A stretch of DNA of 22,293 nt from a virus. Of this stretch, positions 264 through 13,877 are shown piece after piece. The position numbers were made by a program, and so were the translations under genes. The notes beneath the pieces are model-generated. The model had not been told where the DNA came from. It saw nothing but the letters and a program-made list of their open reading frames with translations, and searched no databases. The stretch lies in IMG/VR virus record IMGVR_UViG_3300034630_000006, positions 1-22,293 of that record. One strand, written 5' to 3'. Each line of letters opens with the position of its first letter. Position 1 is the first letter of the stretch.

Positions 264-626
264 ATTTGCAACGACGCCCGAAGAGGAGGCTGAAATCATC
301 CGGCGCGCGGACGAGATTGGCGGCGGGGGAAGGGCGGGTTGCACGACTTCTGTGAGCGAGGCCGTCAGCGGCGTTGGTCTTTTTCGAGGGGTGCAGAAGA
401 GCGACTGGCCGGTTGTCCTGGATCGGCAGTTGAAATGTTGGCCCCTTTGGCTGATGCGTGTGAGACGATAGCCGCTGGTTGTCAGACGTCATGCGCTTCT
501 CGTCGCAATACGGGGATGATCGAAAGTCTCGCTTGCAGCCGGTAGGAGCCAAGCGCGCGTCGGCGCGATTGGCGACACGGTCAAGGACCTGCTATGAGCA
601 GCGAAACGCGCAGTGGAGGGGCATGC
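264..626 (+). other. gene-poor stretch before the amidohydrolase
   Basis: No convincing gene is visible on either strand. The first ~60 bases encode a protein-like fragment in a frame different from the ORF at 123-263, which may be the remains of its C-terminus. The rest has short overlapping ORFs with unnatural composition. I see no clear sigma-70 promoter or terminator. It probably marks the junction where the amidohydrolase gene was inserted into the head operon. Confidence 0.3.
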
Positions 627-1781
627 ATGTTTCTGATCGACCGTGAACTCGAGGCGTTGGCGGCCTTCAGGCAGGAGCTGCACCGGCGGCCGGAGATTTC
701 GGGCGAGGAGCGGGAGACGGCGGAAACGATCGTTGCGGCACTTGCCGAGACGAAGCCGGATGCGGTCGTCACCGGCCTCGGCGGGCATGGGGTGGCGGCG
801 GTCTATGAGGGCCCAGAGCCGGGGCCGACCGTGATGGTGCGGGCCGAGCTCGACGGGCTGCCGATCGAGGAAGTCTCCGAGATCGCCCATCGCTCCGAGA
901 TTTCGGGCAAGGGGCATCTTTGTGGTCATGACGGCCACATGACGATCCTGATGGCGCTTGCCAAGGGCTTTGCGCAGAGGCGACCGGCGAGGGGCCGGGC
1001 GATCCTGATGTTCCAGCCGGCGGAGGAAAATGGTGCTGGTGCTGCGGCCGTGCTTGCCGATCCGAAATTTGCCGGGATCAAGCCGGATCTCGTGTTTTCG
1101 CTGCACAACTTCCCGGGATTAAGCTTCGGCCACGCGGCGCTGCGCACCGGGCCTGTCAACTGTGCCTCGCGCGGCATGCGGATATCGCTTTCCGGCAAGA
1201 CGGCGCATGCCTCGACGCCGGAGGACGGCATTGCGCCCACCTTTGCTATGGCCACATTGCTGTCCGGGCTGACGGCGCTCGGCAACAACGGGCTGCTTAC
1301 CGAGGACTATACACTTGTTACGGTGACGCATGCCCGCCTCGGCGAGGCGGCCTTCGGCATCAGCCCGGGCTACGCCGAAATCTGGGCGACGCTGCGGACG
1401 CTGACCGACGAACGCATGGCCGATCTGGTTGCCCGCGCCGAGGCGTTGGTCGCGCAAGAGGCTGAGGCTGCGGGGCTGAAGGTGGCGATCGGCTACGAGG
1501 ACGTGTTCCACCAGTGCAGCAATGCGGAAATCGCCGTGAGCGCGCTCGCGCGCGCCATGGACGAGGAGGGCGTCAGCCACGACCGCGGCGAAGGCGTGCT
1601 CCCGATGAAGGGGTCGGAGGATTTCGGGCTCTTCGGGCGCGCGGCGCCCTCGGCGATGTTCTTCCTCGGCGCCGGCGAGAACCATGCGCGGCTGCACAAC
1701 CCGGACTATGATTTTCCCGATGGCCTGATCGGCATCGGCGCCAAGGTGTTCATGCGGGTGATCCGCAACGAACTGGGGTGA
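627..1781 (+). CDS. M20 (M20D-type) metallo-amidohydrolase
   Basis: The 384-residue protein has the length and motif order of M20D amidohydrolases (hippurate / N-acyl-amino-acid hydrolase group), cytosolic zinc or manganese enzymes that cleave N-acyl or amide bonds of amino-acid conjugates. Visible motifs are FRQELHRRPEISGEE at 14-28, VRAELDGLPIE at 71-81, the metal-binding CGHDGH at 99-104, QPAEENGAG at 130-138 with the catalytic Glu pair, LHNFPG at 159-164, the lid-domain GKTAHASTPEDG, and a late NHARLHNPDY with the last metal His. I chose the ATG at 627 because GGAGGG ends 6 bases upstream and the protein then begins like family members; an ATG at 594 in frame would add 11 residues. The gene looks intact, lies between portal-like and internal virion genes, and is not a normal phage head gene. 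The exact substrate cannot be read from the sequence. Confidence 0.93.
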   Translation: MFLIDRELEALAAFRQELHRRPEISGEERETAETIVAALAETKPDAVVTGLGGHGVAAVYEGPEPGPTVMVRAELDGLPIEEVSEIAHRSEISGKGHLCGHDGHMTILMALAKGFAQRRPARGRAILMFQPAEENGAGAAAVLADPKFAGIKPDLVFSLHNFPGLSFGHAALRTGPVNCASRGMRISLSGKTAHASTPEDGIAPTFAMATLLSGLTALGNNGLLTEDYTLVTVTHARLGEAAFGISPGYAEIWATLRTLTDERMADLVARAEALVAQEAEAAGLKVAIGYEDVFHQCSNAEIAVSALARAMDEEGVSHDRGEGVLPMKGSEDFGLFGRAAPSAMFFLGAGENHARLHNPDYDFPDGLIGIGAKVFMRVIRNELG

Positions 1782-4463: not shown

Positions 4464-4501
4464 TTCGCACATGGGTAGCGCGGAACAAAAGCAGAATCAA
4501 G
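4464..4501. repeat. 38-bp direct repeat, copy 1
   Basis: This stretch matches 5713-5750 at 36 of 38 positions, the only differences being TG (4472-4473) versus GC (5721-5722). The last 28 bases (4474-4501) are identical in the two copies. Each copy lies in the gap between a leftward gene (here 4366) and a rightward gene (here 4614) and contains a LexA-like box, so it is a duplicated control region and not a random repeat. Confidence 0.9.
4472..4500 (-). promoter_or_regulatory. candidate SOS-controlled promoter with LexA-like box
   Basis: Positions 4483-4497 read GAACAAAAGCAGAAT, that is ATTC-N7-GTTC on the minus strand, matching 7 of 8 fixed bases of the GTTC-N7-GTTC box known for alphaproteobacterial LexA. 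Reading leftward, TTGATT (4500-4495) and TACCCA (4477-4472) are 17 bases apart, a plausible if weak sigma-70 pair that the box overlaps. It would drive the membrane-protein genes from 4366 leftward; control of the rightward gene at 4614 is also possible. Confidence 0.5.
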
Positions 4502-5712: not shown

Positions 5713-5750
5713 TTCGCACAGCGGTAGCGCGGAACAAAAGCAGAATCAAG
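5713..5750. repeat. 38-bp direct repeat, copy 2
   Basis: Same orientation as 4464-4501, with 36 of 38 bases identical and a perfect 28-bp core at 5723-5750. The two copies bracket a 1.2-kb unit holding one rightward and one leftward gene, so homologous exchange between them could delete or swap that unit. Confidence 0.9.
5721..5749 (-). promoter_or_regulatory. candidate SOS-controlled promoter with LexA-like box, copy 2
   Basis: GAACAAAAGCAGAAT at 5732-5746 is identical to the box in copy 1 and fits the alphaproteobacterial LexA box at 7 of 8 fixed bases. On the minus strand TTGATT (5749-5744) is followed 17 bases on by TACCGC (5726-5721), a poor -10. It lies 66 bases upstream of the secreted-protein gene starting at 5655 and 60 bases before the plus-strand gene at 5810. 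Confidence 0.5.
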
Positions 5751-7256: not shown

Positions 7257-8252
7257 ATGGCTGTCGTAGCAAACACCTTCACGACCTCGCAGGCCGTGGG
7301 CAACCGCGAGGATCTTTCCGACGTCGTTTCCCGCATTACGCCGGAGGATACGCCGATCTATTCGCTCATCGAAAAGGGCAAGTGCAACACGCACCACCCG
7401 GAATGGGAGACGGACGAACTGGCCGCGCCCGGCGAAAACATCCGCCAGGAAGGCGACGAATACACCTTCGGCACGATCATCGCTCCGACCAGGCTCGGCA
7501 ACTACACCCAGATTCTGCGCAAGGACTGGATCATCTCGGCCACCCAGGAAGTGGTGGCGGAAGCCGGCAACGTGCAGAAGCGCAAATACCAGAAGCTGAA
7601 GAAGGGCGTGGAGATCCGCAAGGATCTCGAATATGCGATCGCCGACACCAATGCTTCCGTCTCCGGCGCCACCCGTGAACTCGGCTCGCTGCCGACCTGG
7701 CTGACGACCAACGTCTCGCGCGGGGCAGGCGGCGCCAATGGCGGCTACAACCCGACGACGGGCCTGACGGTGTCGCCGACCGACGGCACGCAACGCCCCT
7801 TCACCAAGGCGATCCTCGACCAGGTGATGCAGACGGGCTACCAGAACGGCGCCAACTTCCGCCATGTCTCGGTTTCGCCTTACGTCAAGAGCGTGTTCGT
7901 CACCTTCATGTCCGACGCCAACGTGGCGCCGTTCCGCTACGCCGTCTCGCAGGGCGGCGAGCGCAACACGATCGTGGCGACCGCCGACTACTATGAAGGC
8001 CCGTTCGGCACCGTGATGATCCACCCGAACCGGGTGCAGGCGGGCAGCGCCAAGCTTGCGCGCAACGCCTACTTCCTCGACACCGACATGCTCTCCTTCC
8101 TCTGGCTGCGCAACATCCAGGAAGACAAGGCGGTGGCCAAGACCGGCGACGCGGACAAGGGCGTGATCATCGGCGAGGGAACGCTGAAGGTGCACAACGA
8201 AAAGGGCCTCGGCGTTGCGGCCGACTTGTTTGGGTTGAGCGCTGCGAGCTGA
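7257..8252 (+). CDS. major capsid protein (DUF5309 / SU10-like)
   Basis: The 331-residue product is recognisable as a DUF5309-type major capsid protein (HK97 fold). It begins NTFTTSQAVGNREDLSDVV, continues with RITPEDTPIYSLIEKGK, EWETDELAAP, and TQILRKDWIISATQEVV, and ends with the typical DMLSFLWLRNIQED ... HNEKGLGVAADLFGL. AAGGA lies 7 bases upstream of the ATG. It follows the scaffold gene. A second, broken copy of its 3' end is found at 11220-11448. A stem-loop follows at 8309-8330, after which the order of head genes is interrupted by a 4.5-kb accessory block. Confidence 0.93.
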   Translation: MAVVANTFTTSQAVGNREDLSDVVSRITPEDTPIYSLIEKGKCNTHHPEWETDELAAPGENIRQEGDEYTFGTIIAPTRLGNYTQILRKDWIISATQEVVAEAGNVQKRKYQKLKKGVEIRKDLEYAIADTNASVSGATRELGSLPTWLTTNVSRGAGGANGGYNPTTGLTVSPTDGTQRPFTKAILDQVMQTGYQNGANFRHVSVSPYVKSVFVTFMSDANVAPFRYAVSQGGERNTIVATADYYEGPFGTVMIHPNRVQAGSAKLARNAYFLDTDMLSFLWLRNIQEDKAVAKTGDADKGVIIGEGTLKVHNEKGLGVAADLFGLSAAS

Positions 8253-8308
8253 TCGAGCGGAATAGGCCTTTCTCGCGCACCGATACCTAACCGGAGCGCT
8301 GACGGCTT

Positions 8309-8330: not shown

Positions 8331-8409
8331 TCGCTCGTCGGCGCCTTTGCGGGCTGCGCTCGCAATAGAGGGCACGCGTAAAACGAAACCGAGCTATGAG
8401 AGGTACAGT

Positions 8410-9228: not shown

Positions 9229-9368
9229 GCGGCATCAAGGGTGTGGCCGTGGCCGAAGGACGGTCGTGTCACAGTTCACACGATTCCGCTGCCATTACCG
9301 AGTTCGTCAAGGCGGCAACTGTGGTTGGCTGTGCCGGGTAAAAGATACGATTTCTTCTCAACAATGCC

Positions 9369-9397
9369 TTGTGTTCGTTCTCTTAATGTTCTACAAG
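9369..9397 (+). promoter_or_regulatory. SOS promoter with a perfect LexA-type box
   Basis: GTTCTCTTAATGTTC at 9377-9391 matches GTTC-N7-GTTC exactly. It fills the 17-base spacer between TTGTGT (9369-9374) and TACAAG (9392-9397), so bound LexA would block polymerase. It lies 123 bases before the start of the triple-repeat gene at 9521. The arrangement is repeated at 11679-11707. Confidence 0.75.
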
Positions 9398-9520: not shown

Positions 9521-11170
9521 GTGTTCAGGTGGTGCGTGTCGGCCCTGGCGGCCTTGTTTGTCTTGAGTTCGGCGATCCCGGCGGCGTCCTCGCAACCGTC
9601 ATCCGGCAGTGCAAGACAGGTTTTTGGCGCGTTCCTCGCCTGCAAGGCGGACATCTTTTCGCTTCTCGGCGGTGACAGGGCGGATTTTGGCGCAGCAGTG
9701 ATCGGGCCCTATGACTGGAGCATGTCGGATGGTGTCACAGGGCAAACGATCGCGTTCGCGGCGCCTGTCGACGTCGGTAGCCTGTCGCTCACCGGCTATG
9801 TCCAGTTTGAGGCCGTCGGCATTGCTGTTCCGCACTTCACGTGGGGTTTTGAGGTCGAGCGGCGCGTATCTGACGTCGCCAAGGCGATCGAGGCAATGCT
9901 TCCCGGTGCCAGGTTCGTGGCAAAGGATGGTGGTGCGCTCGAGTTGAAGCTCGATGCCCAATCGGTTCCGCAGGGCGACGCATCGGTCGCGCCGGAGGAC
10001 AGTTACAGAAAAATCGTCGTTCGCCAGGCAAACGATCCTTCGCGATCCTTCGTCATGTGTGACGCGTCCAAGGATCGAATGGCGGAACTGACGACCGATG
10101 AGGAGACTGGCAGGAGGCGCCTCCCGGACGCTGAGGACCTGTTCCCACCGGCGAGGCGGCCAGCCGTCAAGACCAACCATGTTCTTGACGCGTTCGTCGC
10201 CTGCAAGCCCTCTTTCTTCGAGGTGTTGAAGGCTGAAAGACGCATCTTCCCGCGGGTCCGTATCGAGCCTTGGGAGAGCCCGGACAACGCGCCTCACATT
10301 CCCGAAGCGGAGAAGACCTACAACGAAACCGTGACATTCGAACACCTGGTCGAGATTGGTGGCCTCCGCATCGTCCGGTTCTTTCAACGAAAGACGGTTC
10401 AGTCTGGTGAACCGACGCGCTTTGCCTGGGCCCTTCAGGTCGCTCAAACGCCCGATGGAGCCGCTCGTGCTATCTCGGCTCAGTACGGTGCGAGATTTAC
10501 GGATTACTGGAGTTTGGTTGACAAGGATGTCGGTGCCACGCCGGTTTCGCAGCACCTGACGTTGCGTTCCTACTTCGATCCCGATGAGCAGGCGACGGTA
10601 ACCTGCGCACCCGACGAAGCCGAGACGAAGGACTTTCGCCTGCCGGAAGCAGCCGAGACCTTCGGCTGGGCCCAACTTGGGCCACCACCGGTGGGCCGCG
10701 GCAACCGGCTGATCAATGCGCTGCTGCAATGCCGGGCGGATTTCTTCGAGGCGCTGGGCGAGGAAAAAAATGCTTTCGGCAAGGTGGCGTTCAAGCAGGC
10801 CGCCGGCCCATACCGCAAGGATGGAGACGCAGAACGCGCGCCAATGCGTGTGGCGTTCGAAAAGCCGGTCTATGCCTCGGGCTTCACGCTGACAGGATAC
10901 ATTCAGCGGCGCGTGAATGTTGCAGGCGAGATGAAACTGAGATGGGGTTTTCAATCACCGGACGGCATGAGCAGGATCGAGCGGACCACGGAGAGACGCA
11001 CAGGAAGCGTTCGTGTGTCCGGCAAGGGGTGGTTGTTCGACCTTGAGACCGACGAAACCGGCTACACACCGTCTTCGGATCTCGAGTTTGACGAGGGATT
11101 CTTGGGGTGCACGACGCCGCTCGCATCAGGCATGGAACTGCTGAAATCCGGTGACCTCTTTTTGAAATAA
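9521..11170 (+). CDS. secreted protein with three Cys-bracketed repeat domains
   Basis: The 549-residue protein starts at a GTG with GGAGGG just upstream and has a Sec signal peptide (cleavage near AASS-Q25). Three domains follow, each opening with a Cys in an [AL]xxC[KR]xxFFxxL-like motif and closing with a Cys: C41-C180, C228-C362, C404-C530. Domains 1 and 3 share a central xFxxPVxxxxxxLTGYxQ motif and W-G-F about a dozen residues on; domain 2 is more diverged. The Cys pairs suggest one disulfide per domain in the periplasm or outside the cell. Apart from C5 in the signal peptide there are no other Cys. I do not recognise the family. One further copy of the domain is in the protein at 11767-12459. 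A perfect LexA-type box precedes the gene, so it is probably induced with DNA damage. Superinfection exclusion or lysis control are guesses only. Confidence 0.85.
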   Translation: MFRWCVSALAALFVLSSAIPAASSQPSSGSARQVFGAFLACKADIFSLLGGDRADFGAAVIGPYDWSMSDGVTGQTIAFAAPVDVGSLSLTGYVQFEAVGIAVPHFTWGFEVERRVSDVAKAIEAMLPGARFVAKDGGALELKLDAQSVPQGDASVAPEDSYRKIVVRQANDPSRSFVMCDASKDRMAELTTDEETGRRRLPDAEDLFPPARRPAVKTNHVLDAFVACKPSFFEVLKAERRIFPRVRIEPWESPDNAPHIPEAEKTYNETVTFEHLVEIGGLRIVRFFQRKTVQSGEPTRFAWALQVAQTPDGAARAISAQYGARFTDYWSLVDKDVGATPVSQHLTLRSYFDPDEQATVTCAPDEAETKDFRLPEAAETFGWAQLGPPPVGRGNRLINALLQCRADFFEALGEEKNAFGKVAFKQAAGPYRKDGDAERAPMRVAFEKPVYASGFTLTGYIQRRVNVAGEMKLRWGFQSPDGMSRIERTTERRTGSVRVSGKGWLFDLETDETGYTPSSDLEFDEGFLGCTTPLASGMELLKSGDLFLK

Positions 11171-11219: not shown

Positions 11220-11448
11220 CGTCTCGCGCGGGGCAGGCGGGCAGCGCGAATCTCGCGCGCAACGCCTACTTCCTCGACACCGACATGCTCTCCTTCCTCT
11301 GGCTGCGCAACATCCAGGAGGACAAGGCGGTGGCCAAAGCCGGCGACGCCGACAAGGGCTGATCATCGGCGAGGGTACGTTGAAGGTGCACAACGAAAAG
11401 GGCCTCGGCGTTGCCGCAGATCTGTTTTGGCTGAGTGCTGCGAATTGA
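11220..11448 (+). pseudogene. remnant of a second major capsid gene (3' end)
   Basis: Positions 11233-11448 match the last ~218 bases of the capsid gene (8036-8252) with about 20 differences by eye, mostly at third codon positions. The preceding bases (11220-11240) match an earlier part of the capsid gene (7712-7732) perfectly. The two parts join at an 8-base microhomology (GCAGGCGG), which corresponds to a 311-base internal deletion and shifts the frame. One base is also missing in GACAAGGGC-TGATC (near 11361), a second frameshift. The fragment has no start and cannot make capsid. Because the differences are largely silent, it comes from a related but separate phage capsid gene and is not a fresh copy of 7257-8252. 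Confidence 0.9.
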
Positions 11449-11678
11449 TCCCGGAGTCCTGCACATTGGAAAGGGGTGGACATTGGTTCGCCCCCGATCG
11501 ATCGAAAACTCGCTGCAGAGGCTGCCGTCGGGGCGAGCAGTGCGACGAGCATTCCGCTCTTGCCGTGGAGGCACTGCACGAAAAGCGGGATCTGCAGCGG
11601 ATGCAGGCTAACGTCGATGGCTGGCCGTCAAAACCTCCTCTGCACCGCATAAGCTGTGGAGATGGTTGGATTTCAACC
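11449..11678 (+). other. intergenic stretch after the capsid remnant
   Basis: No gene is supported. Short ORFs overlap in all frames with irregular composition and no ribosome binding sites. It may contain further decayed phage sequence, but I could not match it to anything else in the window. Confidence 0.3.
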
Positions 11679-11707
11679 TTGTGTTTGTTCTTGAAATGTT
11701 CTAGTAG
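11679..11707 (+). promoter_or_regulatory. SOS promoter with a perfect LexA-type box
   Basis: GTTCTTGAAATGTTC at 11687-11701 matches GTTC-N7-GTTC exactly. As in the promoter at 9369, it occupies the 17-base gap between TTGTGT (11679-11684) and a -10-like TAGTAG (11702-11707), and the preceding CCTTGTGTT is shared. The predicted leader to the domain gene is only ~35-60 bases long. Confidence 0.72.
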
Positions 11708-11766
11708 GCTGATGTCTGGTTACGCTCTGCAAATGAGGAGGCGGCACGAAGAGGTGGCTAAAGGTA

Positions 11767-12459
11767 TTGGTCTACACCGTTGTCACTCTCTTCGGGCTGT
11801 TCGTCGTGCTGGTCGGGCTGGTGTTGGCGACAATCGATCCCTATTCGTTTGAAGACATGAGCCGCGGCGGAATCTGCGAAAGAAGCGGTGGTGTAGTAGC
11901 GCCGGAATGCGCAATGCCACCGGAGAGCGCCGAGAAGGTGTTGGCTGCATTGCTCACGTGCGACGCCCAATTCTTCAAGACCCTTGACGAAGAGAAGGCT
12001 GTTTTCAAGAGGGCGAATATCGTGGCTCACCCTTACAACCTTCTCGACGCAGGCGAGCCGCGGACTTCCGTTGTGCCGTTCTCTCAGCCCGTCGAGGCGT
12101 ACGGACTTCACCTCACCGGTTACACGCAACAGGCCGTGCGGGGAAAGAGCGACTACGCGTGGGGGTTTTATGCGTCGGAACAGCCTGACGACGTCGAGCG
12201 CGCACTGGAAGCAGCCCGCAGCGACGCGCTTGCAGCAAACCCACGCGCCGGCGCGTTCGTGATAACGGCATCCGACACCCCTGATTTTCCTGGAACACGG
12301 CTTGGTTGTCGCGTTGCCGGGGATGGCGCCTCCACCATCGAGGACTTGCCGTCGGTTTACGATCTGTTCCTGTCTCGAGACATCACTACTTCACTCTTCG
12401 ACAAGTTCGATCTCTTCGTCGCGTCGGCGATGAAGACCGTTTCGGATTTTGGGCGATAG
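11767..12459 (+). CDS. membrane-anchored single-domain relative of the triple-repeat protein
   Basis: The frame opens with a hydrophobic segment (VYTVVTLFGLFVVLVGLVLAT), probably an uncleaved signal anchor, then a short linker with two Cys and one copy of the Cys-bracketed domain: LAALLTCDAQFFKTLDEEKAVF (C65), VPFSQPVEAYGLHLTGYTQQ, YAWGF, closing with TRLGC (C181). The listed start is a TTG, the first standard start in frame, giving 230 residues. However, seven codons earlier an ACG at 11746 would give (M)KRWLKVLVYTVV, a typical anchor start, and GAGGAGG sits 4 bases before it. So the true start may be ACG or a mutated ATG. The domain is shared with 9521-11170 and both genes have the same SOS promoter design. 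Function unknown; predicted to face the periplasm. Confidence 0.75.
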   Translation: MVYTVVTLFGLFVVLVGLVLATIDPYSFEDMSRGGICERSGGVVAPECAMPPESAEKVLAALLTCDAQFFKTLDEEKAVFKRANIVAHPYNLLDAGEPRTSVVPFSQPVEAYGLHLTGYTQQAVRGKSDYAWGFYASEQPDDVERALEAARSDALAANPRAGAFVITASDTPDFPGTRLGCRVAGDGASTIEDLPSVYDLFLSRDITTSLFDKFDLFVASAMKTVSDFGR

Positions 12460-12745: not shown

Positions 12746-12773
12746 AAGGCGGCTCTCCGGAGCCGCCTTTTTT
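12746..12773 (+). terminator. Rho-independent terminator
   Basis: GGCGGCTC (12748-12755) and GAGCCGCC (12760-12767) form a perfect stem, extended by AA/TT, with a TCCG loop, followed by six T (12768-12773). It is the best intrinsic terminator in the window. It ends just before the connector operon and may be the original capsid terminator, now separated from the capsid gene by the accessory block. Confidence 0.9.
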
Positions 12774-12957: not shown

Positions 12958-13281
12958 ATGCTGATCCGTGATGGAGCCTGGACGCTCTACGACCATGACA
13001 GAATGACCGGCCGCTCCGTCTGGCACCACTTCGACGGAGAGAAGGACGTCTACCGTGTCGATTATCCCGTCGACAACCTGGTGAGCGAAAACCAGGCGGT
13101 GCGCAACAGCGCCGAAAGGATCTGGCAAGGCGATTGGCATCGCGTCGCCTCGGTCCCGCTCAACATTGCGCATGCTTCGGGTCTGGTGACGGCACATTCC
13201 GAAGGTGACGACCGTTTCGTCAAACGCTTCCTCAACGACGGCGACAACCGCGCCTGGCGCACCAAGGAGGGCAGGCTATGA
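12958..13281 (+). CDS. conserved phage protein of the connector operon
   Basis: The 107-residue protein (MLIRDGAWTLYDHDRMTGRSV...) has a beta-rich start, a central VSENQAVRNSAERIWQGDWHRVASVPLNIAHASG and an end FVKRFLNDGDNRAWRTKEGRL. The combination 'RVASVPL ... LND-DN-xxRT-xGR' is a pattern of small phage proteins found just before the adaptor genes of short-tailed phages. I cannot attach a biochemical role. GGGGAG precedes the ATG at 12958, and its stop overlaps the next start (ATGA at 13278). Confidence 0.7.
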   Translation: MLIRDGAWTLYDHDRMTGRSVWHHFDGEKDVYRVDYPVDNLVSENQAVRNSAERIWQGDWHRVASVPLNIAHASGLVTAHSEGDDRFVKRFLNDGDNRAWRTKEGRL

Positions 13282-13877
13282 GCATTGCAGACTATGCCGC
13301 GTTGCTTGTCGATGCGGGTGAATACAGCGGGCGCAACGACATCGCGCATCTCTTTCCGCGTTTCGTCGGACTTGCCGAATTGAAACTCAACAGGGCACTG
13401 CGCGTGAGCGAGATGGAAGCGACGGCGTCGATCAATGTCGTCGACGGCGACGCGCCTCTGCCGATGGACTTTCTCGAAGCTCGACAGGTCTTGACGGCTA
13501 CGGGCCGGCCGATCCGCGCAGGCGCCTTGCAGCAATTTTCCGACATCGGCCTGACGGGCGGTGGCACCCCACTCGGCTATTCGATCGTCGGCAACCGGAT
13601 CAAAGCCTTTCCAGCCGGCAGCTACGGGCTGACGGTGACCTACTACCGCAAGATCCCGCCGCTTTCGGCCGTCAACCCCACAAACTGGCTGCTGGAGCAG
13701 GCGCCCGACGCCTATCTCTATGGTCTTGTCGAGGAGATCGCCATCTGGGAGCGCGACGCCGGCAAGGTTGGAGCCGCGCAACAGCTGAAGATGTCGGCGC
13801 TTTCCGGGCTCGGTATTGCCGATGAACGCGCGCGCTGGGGCGATGCCCAGATGATGGTGGGAGGGGCAACACCATGA
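13278..13877 (+). CDS. head-tail adaptor protein
   Basis: The 199-residue product has the features of SU10-type phage adaptors: an N-terminal helix with LFPRFVGLAELKLNRALRVSEMEA, then VDGDAPLPMDFLEARQVL, a beta-rich section with GTPLGYSIVGNRIKAFP and LTVTYYRKIPPLS, and a C-terminal NWLLEQAPDAYLYGLVEE helix. Such proteins dock on the portal and connect it to the tail tube. Overlaps of 4 bases with the genes on both sides point to tight translational coupling. No residues appear to be missing. Confidence 0.75.
   Translation: MSIADYAALLVDAGEYSGRNDIAHLFPRFVGLAELKLNRALRVSEMEATASINVVDGDAPLPMDFLEARQVLTATGRPIRAGALQQFSDIGLTGGGTPLGYSIVGNRIKAFPAGSYGLTVTYYRKIPPLSAVNPTNWLLEQAPDAYLYGLVEEIAIWERDAGKVGAAQQLKMSALSGLGIADERARWGDAQMMVGGATP

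Follow-up and report, generated by a model that had tools for sequence, protein, structure and literature searches.

The 22,293-nucleotide stretch of DNA analysed here (the window) belongs to an SU10-like prophage whose relatives occur in Ensifer, and two of its genes for exported-looking proteins are each preceded by a LexA-type box within a predicted promoter (Table 1). Based on the comparisons described below, it is highly probable that the first of these boxes functions as an operator for host LexA, which would render moron cassettes of rhizobial prophages inducible by DNA damage. LexA control of the cassette genes is considered very likely; The sites, their constant layout, their association with the gene family and the operator form of the hosts are observed, whereas LexA binding, SOS induction and export of the encoded proteins we infer from sequence.

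Host LexA bound at the box, within the spacer of a sigma70 promoter, would block RNA polymerase, and in the lysogen the gene at 9521 would be kept silent. In the SOS response, RecA-stimulated self-cleavage of LexA opens LexA-blocked promoters. DNA damage would thereby, via active RecA and LexA self-cleavage, lead to transcription of the genes at 9521 and 11767, each from its own promoter. The unit of a LexA promoter and an exported-looking cysteine-domain gene would represent a moron cassette of rhizobial prophages, mainly of Ensifer, present in one to four copies per prophage between the capsid and adaptor genes. As is characteristic of morons, the cassettes have their own (predicted) promoters, lie between conserved phage genes and are absent from related prophages.

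Table 1. Features of the cassette region in the window.
Feature	Position	Strand	Evidence or remark
Major capsid protein gene, SU10-like (PF17236)	7257..8252	+	bounds the cassette region on the left; origin of the 3'-end copies
-35-like element TTGTGT	9369..9374	+	sequence; TTG at 25/25 distinct family-upstream sites
LexA-type operator GTTC-N7-GTTC (predicted)	9377..9391	+	sequence; family-wide conservation; host operator form
-10-like element TACAAG	9392..9397	+	sequence; family alignment
Cassette gene 1, 549 aa	9521..11170	+	GTG start; apparent signal peptide; three copies of one domain
GTTC-N7-GTTC inside ORF 9521-11170	10181..10195	+	match also within coding sequence in relatives
Degenerate extra copy of the capsid gene 3' end	11229..11450	+	91% to 8031-8254, 224 columns
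Second promoter TTGTGT-N17-TAGTAG (predicted)	11679..11707	+	contains LexA-type box GTTCTTGAAATGTTC at 11687-11701
Cassette gene 2, 230-aa one-domain paralogue	11767..12459	+	N-terminal hydrophobic segment
Terminator-like hairpin 3' of the second cassette	12746..12769	+	most pairs (10) of 5 sites
SU10-like adaptor gene (PF24175)	13278..13877	+	bounds the cassette region on the right, together with 12958-13281

Architecture of the promoter and its box

Read from the sequence, GTTCTCTTAATGTTC is a direct repeat that matches exactly the motif GTTC-N7-GTTC given for alphaproteobacterial LexA in the available text of PMC3323433, as the original prediction had stated, and its placement in a 17-base spacer (9375-9391) between TTGTGT and TACAAG was likewise confirmed. 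The box thus overlaps a predicted promoter with -35- and -10-like elements at a fixed spacing that is conserved over the gene family, and is located 129 nt upstream of the GTG start of ORF 9521-11170. In the frame of the rhizobial sigma70 promoter, the motif of which is CTTGAC-N17-CTATAT in Sinorhizobium meliloti according to an excerpt of PMC2873474, the site reads CTTGTG (9368-9373)-N17-CTACAA (9391-9396). At the -10-like element the last T of the consensus is missing, and a generic sigma70 scan did not pick up the promoter at 9369-9397. The box preceding the paralogue at 11767, to which the original prediction makes no reference, lies in a promoter nearly identical to that at 9369-9397.

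The 15-mer on its own is near chance both in the window (three occurrences vs a shuffle mean of 0.78, with 4 of 100 shuffles reaching three) and in six host genomes (192-253 per genome vs 124-186 for the reversed pattern), and its count was rejected as evidence for a switch. The box at 9377 stands out from chance matches through its constant promoter setting and because it is conserved throughout the gene family. The additional match within ORF 9521-11170 was rejected as a part of the switch and is attributed to chance and coding conservation.

Association of the box with the gene family

A sample of prophage loci blind to the family was assembled via the capsid protein, comprising 80 of the 175 loci that encode a relative and the window itself (81 loci, 1.47 Mb). 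These loci contain 74 GTTC-N7-GTTC matches in the sense direction and 30 in the antisense direction (8 and 18, respectively, for the reversed control), and the family is encoded in 19 of them. All promoter-type sites, defined by TTG at the fixed spacing, precede family genes with a single exception upstream of an M20 peptidase gene in locus L099, and the 62 family-less loci have none. Much of the sense-strand surplus that is left comes from a motif in coding sequence, located some 1,500 bases 3' of the capsid start. The 25 distinct sites upstream of family genes share TTG (25/25), T before the second GTTC (24/25) and TA after it (24/25); the same features occur at only 1, 10 and 1, respectively, of 47 other distinct sites. 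Upstream of eleven other phage genes the box was present in 21 of 535 stretches, 19 of which precede the adaptor gene, where it represents a single coding motif, namely the one described above.

When further loci, chromosomal ones among them, were included and proteins above 95% identity removed, 54 of 86 family ORFs were kept. Among these, 38 are intact leaders, of which 32 have a perfect box within 300 nt, two a box with one mismatch and four (L014 6775, L094 8151, L096 15062 and L110 12743) no box even when one mismatch is allowed. Perfect boxes are found at one of the six second-in-tandem genes and at two of the ten family fragments, the other five and eight having none.

Thirty promoters less than 80% identical to each other were aligned, with the GTTC and TTG letters fixed by the selection and all others free; one family-upstream match without TTG (L020 7975) was left out of this count. 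Conserved positions among the free letters include C before TTG (25/30), A8 (28), A9 (28) and T10 (29) before the second GTTC, and T15 and A16 (29/30 each) directly after the box. It is extremely improbable that the box is a functionless match, arisen by chance or carried along in recent cassette duplications: GTTC-N7-GTTC is common by chance and the cassettes clearly duplicate, but the flanks of the 30 promoters are at background (0.16 bit on average) around fixed promoter and box letters, and the box is retained by the great majority of leaders. Some 12 bases past the box, family promoters (L016 7856 and others) also show a weakly conserved element resembling GCGAG, with G at +27 in 26 of 30.

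The original prediction further held that the gene at 9521 would be induced independently of the late phage operon. The promoter of each cassette supports this claim in part; against it, the cassette genes are co-directional with the late operon, and a region scan identified no terminator-like site between the end of the upstream gene (9228) and the box at 9377, so that late read-through could add to expression. Terminator-like sites in the region amount to five, compared with 4.9 expected. That expression results mainly from late-operon read-through after prophage induction, with the LexA promoter playing a minor part, nevertheless appears unlikely, as a promoter kept before each leader, over domains that share only 20-30% identity across the family, would be without purpose under read-through.

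Operator form in host genomes

The same operator form is found at host SOS genes. In all six host genomes, which are those holding relatives and do not include the window's own host, GTTCCATATGTGTTC is located upstream of lexA and GTTC-N6-T-GTTC upstream of recA, in both cases on the strand opposite to the gene. Eighteen more boxed stretches were fetched, 16 of them picked from the listed sites of one genome and two from another. Pfam-supported genes following a box encode an IMS polymerase (dinB-like), a ChlI protein (comM-like) and a UvrD helicase; an ABC ATPase with a Pfam match below the cut-off is probably UvrA, and the fifth boxed-gene protein tested had no Pfam match. The boxes of most other stretches fall within or ahead of genes that are unrelated or were not recognised. 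The composite pattern TTG-N5-GTTC-N6-T-GTTCT occurs 15 times in the six hosts (once for the reversed control), 12 times before family genes and once each before a comM-like, a UvrD-like and an M20 gene. Together with the position shared by the leaders of the family, the host SOS genes strongly support the predicted placement of a LexA operator inside the promoter.

Alternatively, the main protein acting on the box might be a LexA-like (CI/S24) repressor of the phage instead of host LexA. An S24 peptidase domain is indeed encoded in two of 13 family-carrying viral records, and a LexA-family repressor is encoded by a rhizobial prophage-like tailocin locus, according to the available part of PMC10811719. 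However, the host SOS genes share the GTTC-N7-GTTC form, and the other 11 family-carrying records, which may be fragments, lack an S24 match. The 62 family-less prophage loci without a promoter-type box argue against a general phage operator, and this absence, together with the low number of S24 matches, makes a phage repressor as the reader very improbable. Control by host LexA remains the preferred reading. In a scan of 16 viral records for a second LexA-type switch elsewhere, the further matches inspected, in seven stretches, had no gene in common.

The cassette protein family

A putative signal peptide of the 549-aa protein was recognised by reading its N-terminus by eye. Among 72 non-redundant domains of the family, C14, F19 and F52 are invariant and W81 and C153 nearly so; the conserved cysteines suggest a disulfide. 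The expected start of the 230-aa paralogue at 11752 (after GGAGG) is ACG in the window and ATG in the relative L005, which may mean that the gene is translated inefficiently or is decaying in the window.

Six genome records, five titled Ensifer and one 'Rhizobiales bacterium', encode close relatives of the 549-aa protein, and tblastn did not find the protein in 50,697 phage records. By profile, the family was detected in 9/16 genomes of a genus sample, 6/394 of a family sample, 2/397 of an order sample and 1/385 of a class sample; these samples overlap, the query genome is counted in each, and the three wider ones were scored on at most nine candidates per genome. A distant member (L094 8151-8738, E 4e-12) is encoded, without a box, in another genome of the same order.

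The family had no match in Pfam, PHROGs, NCBIfam or PADLOC, the models of the latter matching none of 18 members, and a profile search of the PDB with the family likewise yielded no match. AlphaFold2 predicts a mixed alpha/beta domain (pLDDT 86.6, pTM 0.85); the model of the full 549-aa chain has a pLDDT of 77.6. For the domain, neither the PDB nor BFVD gave a fold match with E ≤ 0.001, and the full chain had none in the PDB; the best PDB matches (E 0.15 for the domain, 0.048 for the full chain) are both weak. The weak VIA matches, among them START domains with Z values reaching 5.0, the best, and the periplasmic immunity protein Tsi3 (Z 4.0), were within noise and were rejected.

It is quite improbable that the product belongs to one of the classical LexA-controlled types, being either an antirepressor that acts as an induction switch or a bacteriocin. 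Prophage antirepressors under LexA control are described in the accessible text of PMC3121763, and the sequence places a LexA operator at the promoter here too; against this stand the signal-peptide-like N-termini (read by eye), the conserved cysteines and the lack of a family match in the four databases named above. As a guess that we hold loosely, the cassettes might instead encode envelope proteins that help the induced cell, from within or from its surroundings, to compete against other phages or strains. Such a role would agree with the apparent export of the proteins, with their divergence and variable copy number, and with expression timed by DNA damage.

Capsid gene copies and cassette history

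In addition to the degenerate copy in the window, stretches that repeat part of the capsid gene 3' end lie between cassettes in loci L016, L095, L097 and L102, mostly about 480-590 bases long and 87-95% identical; one repeat in L102 (1000 columns at 85%) extends into the neighbouring lysozyme-type gene. The window encodes a protein of the tail-lysozyme type at 8347. Additional pieces of the capsid gene were detected with tblastn in 7/19 loci with the family vs 0/62 others, a comparison in which the loci are related, some are cut short and the sample is not independent. As capsid 3' copies are found only beside cassettes, they suggest that cassettes spread by homologous recombination, and the sequences would most simply be explained by growth and exchange of cassettes through such recombination involving the 3' end of the capsid gene.

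We propose only tentatively, and with some doubt, that the capsid 3' ends serve as docking sites for an SOS cassette array built by recombination, which would resemble an integron without an integrase and be deployed against rivals upon DNA damage. In the same doubtful scenario, phages would gain, swap and stack cassettes of a LexA promoter and a gene for an exported, fast-diverging protein.

Comparison with known systems

Like the alphaproteobacterial LexA regulon, the cassettes have GTTC-N7-GTTC upstream, as do the host lexA, recA, dinB-, comM-, uvrD- and probably uvrA-like genes. In contrast to that regulon, the targets here are exported-looking phage cargo, and the rigid promoter layout is absent at lexA and recA. 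Prophage genes under LexA control are already known (PMC3121763 and PMC9437464, as far as the available portions of these sources describe them). The Gifsy antirepressors, 186 tum and N15 antC share control by host LexA, which is predicted from sequence in the present case, but in the available text of PMC3121763 they are antirepressors that trigger induction; the cassettes instead form a multi-copy family of exported-looking proteins, located in the structural gene region and preceded by an alphaproteobacterial operator.

As in phage morons, an extra gene with its own promoter is inserted between conserved late genes and is missing from 62/81 loci. Unlike morons, which are expressed in the quiet lysogen, the cassettes would be induced by damage, and they form tandem arrays with repeated capsid gene 3' ends. 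Rhizobium phage RHph_N2 and its relatives (major capsid protein 83% identical) encode the same capsid and following structural genes, but have only three short annotated genes separating the capsid gene from the structural gene that follows, and no large cassette gene.

Our literature search, made mostly at the level of abstracts, found no description of this exported-looking cassette family or array, or of capsid 3' docking copies. Apparently new here are the multi-copy, exported-looking cassettes under a LexA-type switch in rhizobial prophages, with capsid 3' copies as apparent docking sites. The tie to the rhizobial DNA-damage response provides a first handle on when this unnamed family may act, and the capsid 3' copies suggest that cargo can be stacked and exchanged inside a structural operon without a dedicated recombinase.

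Additional features of the loci

Of 92 loci searched, 11 contain an M20 peptidase gene with its start; L018 and L099 represent the same prophage. It lies to the left of the structural genes, without a box in the window (594-1781) and with a perfect box in L016 (1689) and L099 (4658), and was not included as a part of the system, given perfect boxes in only two distinct prophages. Rfam and tRNA scans of the window returned no match. A 38-base direct repeat (95% identical) was observed at 4464-4501 and 5713-5750, near the starts of two small ORFs.
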